DNA from: Salinivirgaceae bacterium
GTDB lineage: Bacteria; Bacteroidota; Bacteroidia; Bacteroidales; SZUA-534
Length of the DNA stretch: 38,412 nucleotides
Assembly: GCA_027858735.1 (NCBI GenBank)
Contig: JAQICC010000124.1
Coordinates: 1 to 38,412 of the forward strand
Direction: 5' to 3'
Below are positions 28,405 to 37,649 of this stretch, piece by piece; the first letter of the stretch is position 1; the number at the start of each line of letters is the position of its first letter. The notes under the pieces were generated by a model. The model ran no database searches and was not told the origin of the DNA. It saw only the letters and a program-made list of their open reading frames with translations. A program made the position numbers and the translations under genes.

Positions 28405-31400
28405 ATGATAAAAAAAATATTCACTTACCTAATTATTTTATTTGCTGCGCTAGGGTTGGCAAAACCACTTATGGCTCAAAACAATGTGCCGATATCGTGC
28501 TCACCCATACTTACACCACCTTACACCCTTAATTTAAGCGATTTTAGTGCCTTGGGCTCGCAAAAGCTTATGGTGTATTTGCATACCAACGATCTGGACA
28601 TTTCGAGGCTACCCGTAAAATTACAGCTTAAAATAGAATCGGTGGGCATAAGCATCGAGAATCAGCCAAGCATAGTAACCACCCCTATTTATTTAGATGG
28701 CGGTGCAACAAATGTATTGTACGGTAGCGATTTAGCTGACTATTTCAATATTAATAACCTCACCTTTCAAGGATATTCAAAAGATGCCTACCGTAGGGCG
28801 GGACAGTTGCCCGAGGGGTTTTACCGCTTTAGCATATCGGTAATACATTATTATACCCACAGGCTGGTTTCCAATACAGGTACCCTTAGTGCATGGATAG
28901 TGGTAGGTAAACCGCCAACATTAAAATTCCCCTTAAACGAAGATTATATTGGTGATAATGTAGGTATGCCTATAACCTTTTCCTGGTTGTCGAGTAATGC
29001 CGGTAGTCCTGCAGCAGTGGGTAGCATACAATACACCTTGCAGTTATGGGAAATGCGCATTGATAACATAAACCCTAATTTGGTGGTAGCAACCATTCCG
29101 GTGTTTTTTGAAGAAACCGTATTCAATACAGCCTATACCTTTTATACCAGCACCATGATCATGGAACCGGGCATGCGCTATGCATGGCGGGTAACAGCCA
29201 GCGATGCTGCCGGTTTGGTGCCTTTCGAACAAAAAGGGCAAAGTGAAGTGCGTACCTTTACTTATAAAGCATCGTGCGATTCGGTTAACAGCTTACAAAG
29301 TCAGGTCACTGGTCGCGGTGGTAAATTTACTTGGGATGGTATGCCCAACCATACCTCGTACAATGTGGAAATGAAAAATCCGAAAACAGGTTGGTTAAAG
29401 CAAAGCGAAACCTTTGAAAATAGCGCCAGCTTTTTTGGATTGGAATATGGATCGGTGTATGAAATGCGGGTGCAATCGGTGTGTAACTCCGATCCCACTT
29501 CGGTAAGTGACTTTAGCCATTGGCAACACCTTGAAATTTCGTTGCCCGAACCTGCTTACGATACCGCTAGCTGTCCGAATTGTGGTTGCGATGACAATAT
29601 GTCGGATCTTGATATCGAAAATTTCGAGATTCGCACCGATCTTATCGACGGCGATACCATACACAACAAACAGGGTACTACGCGTTTAATTATTAAAGAA
29701 ATTACTTCCAATAGTGGTGGAACCTACGAAGGAATATGTTATTTCTGGGCCGAAATTTGGGCTTTAAAAATACCTTGTAATTTTTCAAGTCTTCAGGTAA
29801 ATACCGAAAATGTAATTGTAAACCTTACTCTGGAAAGCATAAACGACCCCACCTTTTTAATTGATGTAGATGAGGTTATTGATGACATTGCTGATAATCT
29901 GGATATATTATTTGATGATTTACCTAACGATACCATTGAATACGACGGTGAAATTGAAACCGTTTATGTAAACGAAGAGGGTGAGGTAATTGCGGTTGAG
30001 GTAAATGAAGATGGCACCGTTACAGAACATAATATCGGTAAAGACGATGATCTTGAAAAAGTGGTAATTCAAGATAAAGAAGGAAATGAATATGTGGTGA
30101 CCAAAAAAGGCGACGTAATGGGCGCCAAAGAATATGTGGCCACCGAAGGCGGTAAGCGAAGCGATGTAGAAGATTATAATGAAGAGCTTGAAGAAAAGAC
30201 CAGCGAGACCCCAAGTGTGGTGTTTAGTGCCGAAGTCAATCAAAATTATGGTTTTGATGCTTATGTCGATATAAAAAGCAACATACAAGATCAATATCCT
30301 GTTTTAAAAGGAACTTACCGACCCGCCTATAAAAGTGTTGCCAGCTTTAAACCCGATGCCGTGAGCGTAAGCGGCAATAACAATAATACCTTGTTTAAAG
30401 ACGAAATGGGTATTAAGGCAGCTTTGCAGGGAAGCAAAATTACCTTTATTGGTGGCAGCAACGAGCAACAAAAAAGCTTATATGCTATTGATACCCTAAC
30501 CGATCCCGACCAGGTGATCGGGAAACTTAATGTGGTAAGCTATGCGGAACAAACCACTAAACTGGTTATGGTTTCGGTTAACGGGGCAACTTTACCAAAT
30601 GCCACTAGCCTAAGCACCGACCTTAATACCATTTACAAACAAAGTGTAGTACAATGGGAGGTTGTTGCAGGTAATGCCCTAACTAATATTGCCTTCGAAG
30701 GCGAAAAAATGAGCCATGGAGGCAGTGGCGTAACCTCGCCTTATAATGCCGACCAAAAAACCCTTATTAATGCTTATGATGAATCTATAGAAGGCGGCCT
30801 TGAAGACGATGCTTGCTACCTGTTTTTTATAAGCGAAGTAGTTGACAAAGATGCCAACATAGCAGGTTATATGCCCCTAAAATACAACTGTGGATTTATT
30901 TACGGCCTACCCAACAATACCACCATTGCCCACGAATTAGGCCACGGTACCTTTAACCTCTACCACACCTTTAGCAGCAAACTGAATATAGCTGCCGAAG
31001 GCAAAACTCAAAACCTGATGGATTATGCTGGTGGTAGTGAACTATGGCATTACCAATGGGACTTAATTCATGATCCGCAGAATATGCTGTTTGCTTGGAG
31101 TCAGGATGAGAGCGAGGCGGAGATGGCAATTTTAAACTCAAATCTTTCATTGGTATTTTATAATGATAGTGGTCTGGTGCATAACAAAACAATTTACTTT
31201 TTACCTGATTTAAACGAAAAAATCACATTAAAGGCAAAACAAACAAATGATAATATATTAGAAGATGTTAAGGTAAATTGGAGTTATAATAACCAAAAAG
31301 AAGTAACAGAAATAGCTTTAACTACTAATAGTGAATTATTTGGGGAGAAAGAAAAGATCCAAATTGATGTTACTGAAAATGTATTACTTGGAGCAGATTC

Positions 31401-31884: not shown

Positions 31885-33346
31885 AGCCATGAAATTATAT
31901 ATTACCATAGCAGCAATATTTCTTACTTGCACTTTAATAAATGCCCAGCAGATTGATGTACAGGTAGTTTACAACAACACAGCAGATATAAAGGCCAATA
32001 CTGAAACGATAAACAAGATAAAATCTGCCGTTAAAACATCAGAGTTGCAAGCGGCATTAAATAGCAATGGTCATATTACTGATAAAAACCTTATTATCAG
32101 GGTGACTTTTTTTGACCGGGGAGTTATTGGACAGCTAAAACTTAAAGCTGAACATGAACTTACACCGGAAGGATACATTGAAAAATGGCAGGAAACGGTT
32201 AAAAACAAGAGTGGTATATTATTTCTATTTATTAAAAATAAAGGTAAGAGTCAATATGACTTTAATAAGCTGTACGTTTCAGATCAATTAGAACTAGAAC
32301 ATTTATTTCCCCTGGTGGTTGAGTTTGTTAATGAGAATTTGAGTGGTGATTTTACTACCATAATAGGAAATGGAACGAAATATTTAGCAAAGGCAATGAC
32401 ACCGATATGGAATGTAGATGATGAGGGGGATGTTGGATTAAAGAAAGAAGTGGTTGATATAACCAATATTAGCAGCTACCCAGAGTTTCATAAGGGCTAT
32501 AGTAATAGTGTTTACAATTGTTATGATTTTGAACCATATCATTTCATTTGGCCTGATCATGAAGATTTAGGAGCAGAAAGAGATTATGATTACATTCATA
32601 AACTTAGCAGTTATACGAATTATAATGGTAGAGTTGATGATCAAATTCTCAAAATTGAGGAATGGGGATATCATGGAGACGTATTAGTCTCAGGTTGGCC
32701 GTGGAATGTAAATGGTGATTTAGAAAGTGTTAGCGAAGAGGGAGATTATCATGCTAAACTTTCAGAGCATTCAGAAAATGAATCTTCAGGAACAAGAGAT
32801 TTTGAAGAAGGTGAAAATTATTGCCGATTGAATATGATAAGTTCAACAACTCAAAAAGGTGAGCAATTATCAATTTATAAATATAAACAGATATGGGGTT
32901 ATCAGCCTACTTGGTGTAATCAGTTTGCAAATTATATTTCGCAGAATTTGCTATTTAATCATATTCCTTGGCAATCTTCTGGTTATAGGGCAAGCCAAAT
33001 ACATGATTATGTGAGTAACAGCAAACAGTTTAAAAAAGTCACGTTTGAGGAAGCGTGGGAATATACTAATGTCGGTTATGTGGTGTATTTCACATCCTAC
33101 CATTCGTCAGGGGTAAACTATAATTCGGATGGGACGGTTAATTATTGGAGCAGTAGTCCAGGCCATATAGCAACATGCTTTCCTACAGGTGGAGAATTTG
33201 AATTTTTAGAAGGATACCTTGTCCAAGCTGGAGGATTTGATAAAACTAGGCGCTTGATTTTTAAGGATGCTTGGAGTGCTAATTATGGTGTTGAAAGAGA
33301 AAAAGTATCTGCACACATTTATATGGGTTATTTAAAACTTGATTGA
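31877..33346 (+). CDS. Exported papain-like (NlpC/P60-type) amidase, candidate effector
   Basis: 489 residues with a signal peptide ending at INAQ (residue 24; hydrophobic core TIAAIFLTCTL). Residues about 25-175 look like a TPM-like alpha/beta domain (weak call). The C-terminal 160 residues carry the arrangement of NlpC/P60-superfamily peptidoglycan amidases: P-T-W-C347-N-x-F at the start of the catalytic helix, an intervening S-x-x-I-x-D-Y and V-x-F-E-E-A segment, and G-H430-I-A-T for the catalytic histidine. Such enzymes cut peptide bonds in the cell-wall stem peptide. The gene overlaps the metallopeptidase gene by 8 bases and has a strong ribosome site, so it belongs to the same unit; it is followed after 2 bases by the YARHG gene. 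With its own signal peptide it would first reach the cell's own periplasm, so a protector might be needed. A housekeeping wall hydrolase is the alternative. Confidence 0.8.
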   Translation: MNRAMKLYITIAAIFLTCTLINAQQIDVQVVYNNTADIKANTETINKIKSAVKTSELQAALNSNGHITDKNLIIRVTFFDRGVIGQLKLKAEHELTPEGYIEKWQETVKNKSGILFLFIKNKGKSQYDFNKLYVSDQLELEHLFPLVVEFVNENLSGDFTTIIGNGTKYLAKAMTPIWNVDDEGDVGLKKEVVDITNISSYPEFHKGYSNSVYNCYDFEPYHFIWPDHEDLGAERDYDYIHKLSSYTNYNGRVDDQILKIEEWGYHGDVLVSGWPWNVNGDLESVSEEGDYHAKLSEHSENESSGTRDFEEGENYCRLNMISSTTQKGEQLSIYKYKQIWGYQPTWCNQFANYISQNLLFNHIPWQSSGYRASQIHDYVSNSKQFKKVTFEEAWEYTNVGYVVYFTSYHSSGVNYNSDGTVNYWSSSPGHIATCFPTGGEFEFLEGYLVQAGGFDKTRRLIFKDAWSANYGVEREKVSAHIYMGYLKLD

Positions 33347-33348
33347 TT

Positions 33349-34575
33349 ATGAAAAAATTTGTTGTAGGGATTTTGGCATTAATAACTTTAGCGTCTAATG
33401 CTCAAACTAGATCTGATTGTATGCTTAGTGTAGCAGAATCTGATATTGAATTCTGTTCTGTGATTAATGGTGATACCATATTACAAAAGAAAGTTGACAA
33501 AGCCTTAAGAAGGAAAAAAGCGGACAACAAAACTAGCTATATCTTTTTTAATGGGGAGCCTATTGATTCTACGGGGATTCGATTCTCTTCTTATCCATTT
33601 TTGATTGGTAAAGAAATTTGTTTTTATCATGGGAAGCAAGATGAAATATATGGGTACATACCAGAGGAAAGGTTGGAAGTTAAAAGTGGTGATATGCAGA
33701 ATTTGAATTATCATAGAAACTTTATAACTACTAGAGTTGATGATAAAATATTTTTGGTTAATTCTTCTTTTAGTGAATATGTGGAAGAAATGGATGTTAA
33801 AGAGTTTGTAAATAAAGAGGTAACGCTTGGAGGGGATTATGAATCTCTTGCGTCTTATTACAAACTTTGTGATATTGAATATGCCTTGATAAAAGCGACA
33901 TGTAATATTAGTTGTTGGGATTATGAGGTTTACATATACAATCTTGCCAATAAAGAATACAAAAGGATTGATTGGATTAGTAAAGGCGAAGGAGTTCCTG
34001 GTGTTAAGTTTGGTATAGTTTTGAGTAATCGAGAAAGCACCTATTGTTTGGCATATATTGTAAATAGCAATGATAGTAACAAAAACGGGGAATGGCTTTT
34101 AGATGACCAACTCAATCCCATAAGTAAAACGTTATCAAAACATCAAATCAGGTTTGACGGTTATAATGGTAATTTAAATAAGGATTATAACTTTCCAAAA
34201 GTAGCGGGCGTAAATTACAAGCAAGATCAGATAGACTTCTATTATTTATCAGTAGTCCTTGATAATAAGGATGTGGTTTTTGTACCTTATGACTTGAATG
34301 TGAGTCTTGAATTATTGCTTTATAATGCATATCATAACAGGATTTTAACCAAAGAAGATTTAAAGGGCTTTGGAGAATATGAATTCGGTATAATTCGAAA
34401 CCTTATATTTGCCAAATACAATTATGATTTTACCTCGGAATTTTATCAGGCATATTTTAACCTGTTTGCATTTTATAATGCTCCTGAAATGCGAAAATCA
34501 AGAACTAAAGATGTAAATAGTAAACTAACTGAGGCAGATAAAGCCAATTTGGAATTAATAAAGAGTATGGAATAA
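33349..34575 (+). CDS. Exported YARHG-domain protein, candidate immunity or partner of the amidase
   Basis: 408 residues from the ATG at 33349; a TTG at 33343 would add two residues, but the ATG gives a normal signal peptide (MKKFVVGILALITLASNAQ) and sits 2 bases after the amidase stop. The C-terminal 75 residues match the YARHG domain: I-I-R-N-L-I-F-A-K-Y-N-Y-x-F, then Y-F-x-x-F-x-F-Y, and the usual end L-T-E-A-D-K-A-N-L-E-L-I-K. This extracellular domain occurs in Gram-negative and Gram-positive proteins thought to work at the cell wall. The remaining 300 residues are beta-rich and unrecognised. As the last gene of the operon, directly behind a wall-cutting enzyme and also exported, it fits an immunity or regulatory partner, but this is inference from position. 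AT-rich like the amidase gene. Confidence 0.8.
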   Translation: MKKFVVGILALITLASNAQTRSDCMLSVAESDIEFCSVINGDTILQKKVDKALRRKKADNKTSYIFFNGEPIDSTGIRFSSYPFLIGKEICFYHGKQDEIYGYIPEERLEVKSGDMQNLNYHRNFITTRVDDKIFLVNSSFSEYVEEMDVKEFVNKEVTLGGDYESLASYYKLCDIEYALIKATCNISCWDYEVYIYNLANKEYKRIDWISKGEGVPGVKFGIVLSNRESTYCLAYIVNSNDSNKNGEWLLDDQLNPISKTLSKHQIRFDGYNGNLNKDYNFPKVAGVNYKQDQIDFYYLSVVLDNKDVVFVPYDLNVSLELLLYNAYHNRILTKEDLKGFGEYEFGIIRNLIFAKYNYDFTSEFYQAYFNLFAFYNAPEMRKSRTKDVNSKLTEADKANLELIKSME

Positions 34576-34615: not shown

Positions 34616-34951
34616 TTACAATGCAAAAGCTTTTCTGCCTCTTGATTCTCTAATGAAAGTATCAATCACATCAAACAGGGTTCTTTTTTTATCGTCGTCC
34701 AATAGTTCAATTTCTTCGATGCGCTTAAGCGTGTTTTTATCAAACTTGCTGTTCATGCCTTCGCCTACAAGGTAATCAAGTGAAACTTCCAGAGCATCTG
34801 CAATCCTTTTGGCTACTTCAATAGATGGAATGGCATCACCACGCTCGTATTTGCCTACCATAACTTGCGAAATACCAGTTTGCTTGGCTAAATCACCTTG
34901 CGACAGGTTTTTAGATTTTCTTAAATCAGCTATAATTTTACCTACTTCCAT
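34616..34951 (-). CDS. XRE-family helix-turn-helix repressor
   Basis: 111 residues, read leftward and convergent with the YARHG gene. Residues about 4-60 form the five-helix XRE DNA-binding fold with the classic L-S-Q-G-D-L-A-K-Q-T-G-I-S-Q-x-x-V-G-K-Y-E-R-G recognition part and I-P-S-I-E-V-A-K-R-I-A-D-A-L. A short helical tail (about 70-105) probably serves dimerisation. It faces the broken primase gene across 156 bases that contain a good rightward promoter and three direct GATAGTTTT repeats. It is therefore the likely switch of the mobile element, comparable to phage or conjugative-element repressors. Confidence 0.9.
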   Translation of the reverse strand: MEVGKIIADLRKSKNLSQGDLAKQTGISQVMVGKYERGDAIPSIEVAKRIADALEVSLDYLVGEGMNSKFDKNTLKRIEEIELLDDDKKRTLFDVIDTFIRESRGRKAFAL

Positions 34952-35107: not shown

Positions 35108-36679
35108 ATGCAAATCCCCGACATTAAAAAGAACTTGCCAATAACAACTGTTTTGGCACATTACGGAATTAAAATTGATAAGAACAGTCACATAAAATGT
35201 CCTTTTCATAAAGATGAAAAGCCAAGCTGTAAAATATACCTGGATACCAATACATACAACTGCTTTGGCTGTGGCAAAACTGGAGACCAAATACAATTTA
35301 TACAAGACAAAGAGAATTGCAGCAAACACCAAGCTTTGAAAAAGGCAACGGAGTTAATAGGAACTAAAGAAACAAACAATACAGATGCAATGGGGATTGC
35401 AGCAAAGCGGGGCAGCGTAAAGGAGGTGGATTTTGCAAAGCTTTTTAGCAAGCAAAAAGAAAGCCTCCCGCGCAGCCCTAAAGCTTTGGAATACCTTAAA
35501 AGCCGTGGCTTATCCCAAGATTTAGAAATAGGCTACAATAGTGGCATTGCTTGGAAGAAGCTCAAACAATGTGTTGTTTTTCCACTAAAAGACAAAAGTG
35601 GCAACATAGTAAGCATGTATGGTCGGCGAGTTGAAGAAAGCGCAGGGCATAAACTGGAATATGGCACGCATTTTTATAGCGAAAACAGAAAAGGACTTTA
35701 CCCAGCTTACCCACCACAAGAAACAGAAACCTTAATAATTACCGAGGCTATTGTTGATGCTGCAAGTTTGTTGCAAATCGAAGAACTAAATCAATTTACA
35801 ATCCTATCAGCTTACGGATCCAACGGCTTAACAACAGAACACAAAGCAGCCATAAAGGAATGGGCTTCGAGCGGAGTCGAGAAGCAGGAAATTATTTTCT
35901 TTTTTGATGGCGATACAGCTGGTCGTGATGGGGCAAGCAAATACGCTGAGGAATTAAAAGAGCTTTTACCAAACGGGTTACTGAGCGTAGTCGAAGTACC
36001 CGATGGTGAAGACGTAAACAGTTTGTTTGTAAATTATGGAAAGGAAGCCATTTTGCAATTGGTAAGCGAAAGGCAACCAAGCGGCTCAGAAACACCCAAA
36101 CTTAACTCCCCTGCAACCTTTGAACCTTGCCACCCTGAAACCTTATCTCCATTAAACACAGAACAAGCGAACAAGATTATTTATGAAACCCAAACCGCTC
36201 GCTACATCGTTAAAGGCAGCTTACCCAAAACCTTTGATAAAATGGTAATTAGTCTAGATGTGCAAGATTTAGAAACCGCTACAAAATATCGTTGCCGACT
36301 GGATTTGTACGAAGAAAAGCAAACCCGGAAAGAAGCCAGGCAAGCAAGCGAGAAACTAGAGCTTAGAAGCGATTTAGTAGAAAATGACCTTTCACAATTA
36401 ACTGACCTTTTGGAAGAATACCGAGATAACCAACTGCAACAAACCACCGAAGAAGCCAACAACGATAAAGCGTTAAGCTTTGCAGAACAAGCCAAATGCA
36501 AAGAGTTTTTAAGTTCTAGTGATTTAGTTACCAAGCTAAACGAATTGGTTGGTAAAGCGGGCATTGTAGGCGAAGAAAATAACCGTCTGTTTTTATTTGT
36601 CATTGCCACCAGTCATAAAATGCCTGACACTTTGCATGCTTTAATACAAGGTAGTAGCGGAAGTGGAAAAACACATTAA
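35108..36679 (+). CDS. N-terminal part: CHC2 zinc-finger and Toprim primase, ending at Walker A
   Basis: 523 residues are translated as one frame. Residues 31-55 are the zinc finger (C31-x2-H34, C52-x2-C55) of DnaG-type primases. The Toprim catalytic core has the glutamate in I-I-T-E-A-I-V-D-A (about residue 213), the F-F-D-G-D-T-A-G-R-D-G aspartates (about 266) and P-D-G-E-D-V-N-S-L-F. A charged helical linker follows (about 370-480), then the P-loop G-S-S-G-S-G-K-T at 515-522, where the frame stops. A truncated product could still be a primase but would lack the motor. The ATG at 35108 has no clear ribosome site, as usual here. Confidence 0.8.
   Translation: MQIPDIKKNLPITTVLAHYGIKIDKNSHIKCPFHKDEKPSCKIYLDTNTYNCFGCGKTGDQIQFIQDKENCSKHQALKKATELIGTKETNNTDAMGIAAKRGSVKEVDFAKLFSKQKESLPRSPKALEYLKSRGLSQDLEIGYNSGIAWKKLKQCVVFPLKDKSGNIVSMYGRRVEESAGHKLEYGTHFYSENRKGLYPAYPPQETETLIITEAIVDAASLLQIEELNQFTILSAYGSNGLTTEHKAAIKEWASSGVEKQEIIFFFDGDTAGRDGASKYAEELKELLPNGLLSVVEVPDGEDVNSLFVNYGKEAILQLVSERQPSGSETPKLNSPATFEPCHPETLSPLNTEQANKIIYETQTARYIVKGSLPKTFDKMVISLDVQDLETATKYRCRLDLYEEKQTRKEARQASEKLELRSDLVENDLSQLTDLLEEYRDNQLQQTTEEANNDKALSFAEQAKCKEFLSSSDLVTKLNELVGKAGIVGEENNRLFLFVIATSHKMPDTLHALIQGSSGSGKTH
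35864..35885 (+). repeat. Intragenic GAGCGGAGTCGA palindromic repeat
   Basis: The core GAGCGGAGTCGA with flanking GCTTC on the left and GAAGC on the right forms an imperfect palindrome inside the Toprim coding region. I recall this sort of sequence as a dispersed repeat in Bacteroidota genomes. It encodes part of W-A-S-S-G-V-E-K-Q. Confidence 0.45.
35980..35997 (+). repeat. Second intragenic repeat, GAGCGTAGTCGA core
   Basis: ACTGAGCGTAGTCGAAGT shares the core GAGCGKAGTCGA with the copy at 35864 and lies 116 bases from it in the same orientation and reading frame class. It encodes part of G-L-L-S-V-V-E-V. Confidence 0.45.
36677..36679 (+). other. In-frame TAA within the ATPase domain
   Basis: The codons around it read ACA CAT TAA CTT AGC AGA CTA. 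A single T-to-A change from TTA (leucine) would explain it, because related proteins as I recall them continue the P-loop with hydrophobic residues here. The downstream reading frame is unchanged and open for 711 bases. Confidence 0.7.
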
Positions 36680-37390
36680 CTTAGCAGACTAGCCGCTTTA
36701 ATCCCCAGTGAAAGAGACGTACAGTTTACCAGAGTTACCGAAAATAGCTTTTACAATTACGATGAATATTATTTTAGAGGAAAGCTGGTTTGCTTAGAAG
36801 ATATTGACGGCTTAAAAGAAGAAGCACTGTTTGCTTGGCGTGAGCTCATAAGCAATAACCAGTTAAGTAGCTCTACCAGTCAGAAAGATGAAAACGGAAA
36901 TATAAGAAGTGCACAGCGTATTGTCCGCGGACCAATGGCAAGTATTTGCGCTACAACCCACGGTCAAATTTATGAGGACAATATGAGTCGTATGTTTATT
37001 GTTGCCGTTGATGAAAGCTTGGAGCAAACCCAAAATATTATAGCGTACCAAAGCAAAGCAGCCAGCGGAATAGCAGAGAAAGAACAAGAAAACGAAGCAA
37101 AAGAATTTCTGCAGAACTGCATTAGAATGCTGAAACCACAAAAGGTAATTAATCCATACGCCGACAAAATAAAACTACCACTGCAAGCCCATAAAATACG
37201 ACGATTGCACGAGCTGTTTTTAAGCTTCGTAAAGCAAGTAACACTCATTAACCAGTACAATCGAAATAAAGACCAGCAGGGCAGACTTATTACTGAACCT
37301 GAGGATCTAAAAATTGCAGTAGAAATCATGTTCGATAGTATTTTTCTGAAGGTTGATGAATTAGACGGCAGCTTGCGCCAGTTTTTTTGA
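36680..37390 (+). pseudogene. Central ATPase fragment after the stop codon
   Basis: Open in the primase frame for 237 codons without a start of its own; the first ATG is at 36935. It encodes the rest of the AAA-like motor: L-V-C-L-E-D-I-D-G as Walker B, the segment A-S-I-C-A-T-T-H as a sensor-like strand, and N-M-S-R-M-F as a possible arginine finger. From about 37180 it also contains the helical region shared with the gene at 37784. It ends at TGA 37388-37390, created by the T7 run. Confidence 0.6.
37382..37390 (+). other. T7 run causing a frame change
   Basis: The reading is CAG TTT TTT TGA; with six T's it would be CAG TTT TTT GAA AGC, which continues the protein. A P-site tRNA on TTT could re-pair on the next TTT, and TGA in the A-site is a slow stop, so +1 recoding as in prfB is formally possible. 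A homopolymer sequencing error is also possible. Confidence 0.6.
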
Positions 37391-37394
37391 AAGC

Positions 37395-37649
37395 TTGAAA
37401 GAATACGTTTTAGAGAAAGAAAATCCACAGAACTATGAGTTTACCCAAAGAGAAATTAGGCAAGCATTAAACCTTAGTAAAACCAGTCTTTTCAGGTATT
37501 TAAACAACCTAATTGAATTGGAATATATATCGTCAAGTGGTGGTTATTATAACAAGGGATTAAAGTATAAGATTAGCTATTGGGATAATATTACAAAACT
37601 TCGCAGTGAAATACAGCAATATCTTTTAAATCAACTAGATAAGCTATAA
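37395..37649 (+). CDS. C-terminal winged-helix fragment of the primase/ATPase
   Basis: 84 codons, open but with no ATG start; the true coding frame enters from 37389 (GAA AGC TTG). It encodes a winged helix-turn-helix: F-T-Q-R-E-I-R-Q-A-L-N-L-S-K-T-S-L-F-R-Y-L-N-N-L as helices 2-3, and S-S-G-G-Y-Y-N-K-G as the wing. Probably not made as a separate protein. The same domain occurs in the 188-residue protein encoded at 37784. Confidence 0.5.
   Translation: MKEYVLEKENPQNYEFTQREIRQALNLSKTSLFRYLNNLIELEYISSSGGYYNKGLKYKISYWDNITKLRSEIQQYLLNQLDKL

Follow-up and report, generated by a model that had tools for sequence, protein, structure and literature searches.

A YARHG-domain protein as the probable antidote to a predicted cell-wall-cutting toxin in Bacteroidota

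The last genes of the operon

In a 38,412-nucleotide contig of a Salinivirgaceae bacterium (the window), an operon ends with a YARHG protein, W9, encoded directly behind a putative toxin, W8, raising the question whether W9 protects its host from W8. The open reading frame given in the preliminary description agrees with the coordinates in Table 1: the ATG of W9 lies 2 bp past the TGA of W8, and W9 is the final plus-strand gene of its run, in which the genes for W8 and the carrier protein W7 overlap by 8 bp. The N-terminus of W9, MKKFVVGILALITLASNAQ, is by inspection a typical exported-protein signal, in keeping with the export proposed earlier. The C-terminal YARHG assignment also holds, as Pfam family PF13308 matches residues 325–408 (E = 7.3e-10; 39.1 bits versus a cut-off of 27). 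Residues ~20–320 match no family in Pfam or NCBIfam, which confirms a part of about 300 residues without a family. A PDB sequence search returned a single match, 4g2a, at E = 0.066 and lying in the YARHG part, and a scan of viral contigs found no relatives. AlphaFold2 prediction for this protein (three sequences) reached a mean pLDDT of 37, too low for a fold search.

Table 1. Positions of the genes, domains and motifs discussed, in window coordinates
Feature	Coordinates	Strand	Description
SprB-repeat protein, 3666 aa	17397..28397	+	sorting tail for type IX secretion; surface-protein gene lying upstream in the operon
W7, carrier protein, 1159 aa	28405..31884	+	TANFOR-type N-terminus (divergent), FN3, metalloprotease-like HELGH site (residues 843–847), C-terminal module after ~912
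HELGH motif of W7	30931..30945	+	just ahead of residue ~910, beyond which the cassettes of relatives differ
W8, predicted exported toxin, 489 aa	31877..33346	+	signal peptide, conserved N-module (residues ~1–181), variable C-terminal toxin domain
Toxin domain of W8	32903..33343	+	predicted to be a papain-like peptidoglycan hydrolase; Cys347 and Gly429-His430 invariant
W9, predicted periplasmic immunity protein, 408 aa	33349..34575	+	signal peptide, then a variable N-domain of ~300 residues, then YARHG at the C-terminus
Immunity N-domain of W9, residues ~21–324	33409..34320	+	varies with the cognate toxin domain; without Pfam family
YARHG domain of W9, residues 325–408	34321..34572	+	FAKYNY at residue 354; kept among otherwise divergent immunity proteins
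HTH repressor	34616..34951	-	right after the cassette, convergent; backbone gene also found after the C266 cassette (97% identical) and the G231 cassettes

A type IX C-terminal sorting domain is missing in W7, W8 and W9, and the 3666-residue neighbor has one (24.1 bits versus a cut-off of 23); further large exported genes lie upstream in the window. The FN3 match in W7 is weak, and W7 does not match the TANFOR model (TIGR02542). The carrier at L099, a 33% identical relative of W7, scores 30.6 bits with this model, below the cut-off of 67. On the other side of the cassette, the primase-type gene at 35108–37649 is interrupted twice, once by an in-frame stop near 36677 that directly follows a GSSGSGKTH motif and once by a frame change near 37385; its relative at L049 is one long frame. 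The split could be real decay or an assembly error.

The predicted toxin domain of W8

The last ~150 residues of W8 share with its relatives an invariant cysteine, in the motif WCNQF, and an invariant Gly-His pair, in GHIATC. The toxin domains form two classes that align weakly with each other (hhalign probability 58%, E = 1e-4), and the cysteine and Gly-His are invariant in both. At L123, a related domain sits downstream of SLT transglycosylase and LysM domains in one protein. Because of the invariant residues, and because relatives are fused to transglycosylase/LysM domains, W8 is likely a cell-wall hydrolase; at the level of motifs, our best guess is a papain-like peptidoglycan hydrolase. 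The name amidase, used for W8 in the preliminary description, was not confirmed: neither Pfam nor NCBIfam has an amidase family that W8 matches, and W8 and its relatives give no match to Pfam NlpC/P60 or CHAP. The wording is better replaced by predicted cell-wall hydrolase.

The same type of domain is found at the C-terminus of RHS proteins (L097 and L107; Rhs_assc_core above cut-off, 74 bits in L097), which is the usual position of a toxin domain. Another RHS protein (L016) has a weak NLPC_P60 match (E = 0.014), and a YARHG protein is encoded 5 bp behind it. Stand-alone, small secreted versions of 212–224 residues with no apparent immunity gene also occur (L110 and L111); proteins of this kind are possibly housekeeping wall enzymes and the source of the toxin domain. 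AlphaFold2 prediction for the toxin (two sequences) gave a mean pLDDT of 35, too low for a fold search. The toxin profile also hit picornavirus capsid proteins weakly (E between 0.005 and 1), which looks like chance.

Pairing and co-divergence of toxin and follower

Full-length relatives of W9, the window included, were found at 11 loci. In eight of them the toxin domain lies directly upstream (window, L005, L013, L014, L017, L097, L098 and L099; at L098 the upstream gene is partial and the toxin was assigned by eye). The remaining three (L018, L100 and L101) have no toxin neighbor, which is compatible both with an orphan immunity gene and with another role. Among 29 generic YARHG genes sampled from other Bacteroidia genomes, none has the toxin domain upstream (8/11 versus 0/29, Fisher p = 2e-6). 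From the toxin side, a search of 393 genomes of the order with profile A5 gave five strong matches, every one beside a W9-like gene; with L005 and L017, which came from other searches, seven of seven strong homologues have such a neighbor. These counts bear out the co-occurrence expected of the two proteins. The preliminary description had also named wide occurrence without the amidase as refuting its idea. Such wide occurrence was found for the generic YARHG domain alone, and not for the W9 subfamily.

Of 295 Bacteroidia genomes, 40 contain YARHG, for the most part not near any such toxin, which would fit W9 being an ordinary exported YARHG protein that lies beside a toxin by chance. We give this explanation hardly any credence, as the adjacency is conserved across genomes and carriers, the two proteins co-diverge, and the pairing statistics contradict it. 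The order carrier C-module, toxin, YARHG protein is kept in L005, L013, L014 and L099. At L097, the toxin domain follows the RHS core and a W9-like gene begins 1 bp later, and at L017 a toxin and immunity gene of the window's type lie at a contig end. The predicted pair is adjacent, conserved and portable between two unrelated carriers, the operon type of the window and RHS proteins.

A second cassette of the same layout is present in the window's own genome assembly (contig C266 of G000, locus L049). It consists of a carrier tail, a 560-residue stretch ending in the other toxin class and, 7 bp later, a 411-residue YARHG protein, followed by HTH (97%) and primase-type (83%) genes. The toxin and the YARHG immunity protein both differ from those of the window, on the same HTH-primase backbone. 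Given a fragmented assembly (452 contigs, 3.2% contamination), this cassette could come from a sister strain instead.

Not every related toxin is followed by a YARHG protein: homologues of the toxin domain have non-YARHG followers at L106, L107, L108, L117, L118 and L123. J66a, a non-YARHG protein paired with a related toxin, was rejected as proof, its likeness to an immunity N-domain being weak (z = 4.7). A separate, unrelated conserved pair is formed by a YARHG lipoprotein-like gene and an adjoining conserved ~213-residue protein with the recurring C-terminal motif WLGW.PNLLIAE (L019, L020, L021, L023, L024, L041, L043, L044 and others); it occurs in many Bacteroidia genomes outside the order.

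Variation of the pair can be read in a related complete genome, G231, which carries an array of cassettes made of a carrier tail, a variable toxin and a variable follower gene. Each is followed by the HTH and primase-type genes that the window also has, often along with genes that by inspection are tyrosine-recombinase-like. All seven YARHG immunity proteins of this genome follow Cys/Gly-His toxins, and a papain-like toxin is found in two of the eight cassettes with other followers, one of the same type and one C39-type (p = 0.0056; L118, an extra cassette with the same toxin type and a non-YARHG follower, was found later and stands outside this 7-versus-8 table). Among the other toxins of G231 are a C39-type peptidase and one of M15 D-Ala-D-Ala peptidase type. 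The array extends over ~97–290 kb of C1 (L065, L066, L067, L013, L014 and L118) and comprises at least a dozen toxin-immunity cassettes set apart by HTH, primase-type and tyrosine-recombinase-like genes, the same backbone as the window's downstream genes. One cassette (L067, 18801–19901) ends in a Peptidase_M15_4 domain of D-Ala-D-Ala carboxypeptidase type and has a non-YARHG follower, and L065 contains a tandem duplication of ~14.8 kb. The whole looks like a cassette array driven by mobile elements.

Comparing two of these paralogous cassettes, L013 and L014, DNA identity is 97–100% in the left arm, 36–70% in the toxin domain, 41–57% in the immunity N-domain and 73–91% in YARHG; the two YARHG ends are ~90% identical. 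The predicted toxin domain together with the immunity N-domain is the varying unit, as the break in identity at both sides shows. G231 also bears on which protein W9 would guard against. The C-terminal module of the 1159-residue W7 likewise comes after the HExxH site, in the usual place of a toxin, and in L005, L013 and L014 the carrier C-module belongs to the cassette; W9 might be directed against this module and not against the 489-residue W8. This is very improbable in our judgment, because two C-modules of G231 carriers show no difference over ~185 residues, in contrast to the strongly differing W9-type proteins there, and because RHS carriers have a W9-like protein after the Cys/Gly-His domain with no W7-type module between.

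Across 14 pairs from several genomes, similarity between toxins correlates with similarity between immunity N-domains (r = 0.90; partial on YARHG 0.85, p = 0.0005), and the partial correlation inside each of the two classes is 0.93 and 0.87 (exact p ~ 0.001); co-inheritance of linked genes alone could yield part of this correlation, of which the YARHG control takes out only a part. Immunity proteins diversify with their toxins and move with them between carriers. As W9 is paired with the toxin, co-diversifies with it and moves with it between carriers, it behaves as immunity proteins do. A specific partner would co-diverge too, and W9 might be a chaperone, adaptor or wall-targeting subunit that aids the export or activity of W8, a reading to which the common operon and compartment lend themselves; YARHG, proposed as a peptidoglycan binder (PMC3355149), would then guide the pair to the wall. 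We regard such a role as unlikely: in other G231 cassettes the slot of W9 holds different, unrelated proteins after the toxins, relatives of W9 exist without a toxin, and some carriers of this toxin domain have a follower that lacks YARHG. Taken from comparative genomics, the conserved pairing, co-divergence and carrier switching strongly support the idea of an immunity protein put forward in the preliminary description. W9 is most probably an antidote that guards its Bacteroidota host against the host's own predicted cell-wall-cutting antibacterial toxin, encoded just upstream.

A proposed mechanism and its relation to known systems

In the mechanism we propose, W8 would act in the periplasm as a papain-like peptidoglycan hydrolase, and the variable N-domain of W9 would bind the toxin there and block its active site. 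Nearly all members of the W9 subfamily have N-termini that by inspection are signal-peptide-like or lipobox-like. The N-domain is the candidate for the specific inhibitor because it tracks the toxin and because some related toxins have followers without YARHG. We guess, from its pattern and from the Tsi1 analogy, that it may be a beta-propeller. A single immunity family was rejected, as profile comparison of the two immunity classes gives homology in YARHG only. YARHG is a generic C-terminal module and not the specificity part of W9. At least two classes of unrelated predicted inhibitor domains, perhaps with a third in L016, are fused to this tail. Since YARHG is common to N-domains without detectable homology, its role is likely a general one, for instance keeping proteins at peptidoglycan, which was put forward for the domain on other grounds (PMC3355149); as a shared accessory module, it would hold the inhibitor at the wall or stabilize W9. 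A more speculative extension, which we advance tentatively, is that YARHG is a plug-in wall-retention module on which unrelated inhibitor domains are held where hydrolase toxins cut, and that its conserved DNA doubles as a 3' homology arm through which toxin-immunity pairs are exchanged. The analysis defines, in Bacteroidota, a candidate toxin domain that Pfam lacks, the putative immunity families paired with it, and cassette arrays of the G231 type, in which conserved flanks on either side of a variable toxin-immunity core are directly readable.

In organization, the closest systems are those described for Bacteroidetes by Jana et al. (2020; PMC7073777), namely TANFOR polymorphic toxins and BaCT/BaCTic pairs. 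As in the window, they have an FN3 carrier, a toxin fused to it or encoded by the next gene, an immunity gene directly after, and type IX secretion substrates nearby. The window differs in its carrier, as W7 fails the TANFOR model and its relative scores below the cut-off. In the text available, the toxins they name are nucleases and a few wall hydrolases, and YARHG immunity goes unmentioned. Zhang et al. (2012; PMC3482391) surveyed polymorphic systems whose papain-like toxins, Tox-NLPC/P60 among them, are comparable to the toxin domain of W8. Like it, they are predicted Cys-His wall hydrolases that occupy the toxin position at the C-terminus of RHS proteins and further carriers. The W8 domain differs in giving no match to Pfam NlpC/P60 or CHAP. 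In the portion of that paper available, no immunity family is listed for the NlpC/P60 toxins and YARHG is not mentioned.

For the inhibitor, the nearest parallel is Tse1/Tsi1, a type VI secretion NlpC/P60-type amidase and its periplasmic inhibitor (PMC3391265), together with the further, related inhibitors X-Tfi and PliI-Ah (PMC10933484). Like W9, as predicted, these are periplasmic proteins that block a cysteine peptidoglycan hydrolase. They differ from W9 in that no sequence similarity was found between them and in the delivery system, and no YARHG tail is described for Tsi1. The fold of those inhibitors is a partial beta-propeller. YARHG proteins themselves were described by Coggill and Bateman (2012; PMC3355149) without a function, peptidoglycan binding being hypothesized, and among the five papers returned by a full-text search for YARHG, none has toxin immunity as its subject by title or abstract. 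W9 resembles those proteins in being exported, with a C-terminal YARHG and an N-terminal part without a family, and differs from them in that its N-domain is tied to a specific toxin. A domain to which no function had been assigned since 2012 thereby gains a testable setting, immunity to cell-wall hydrolases.
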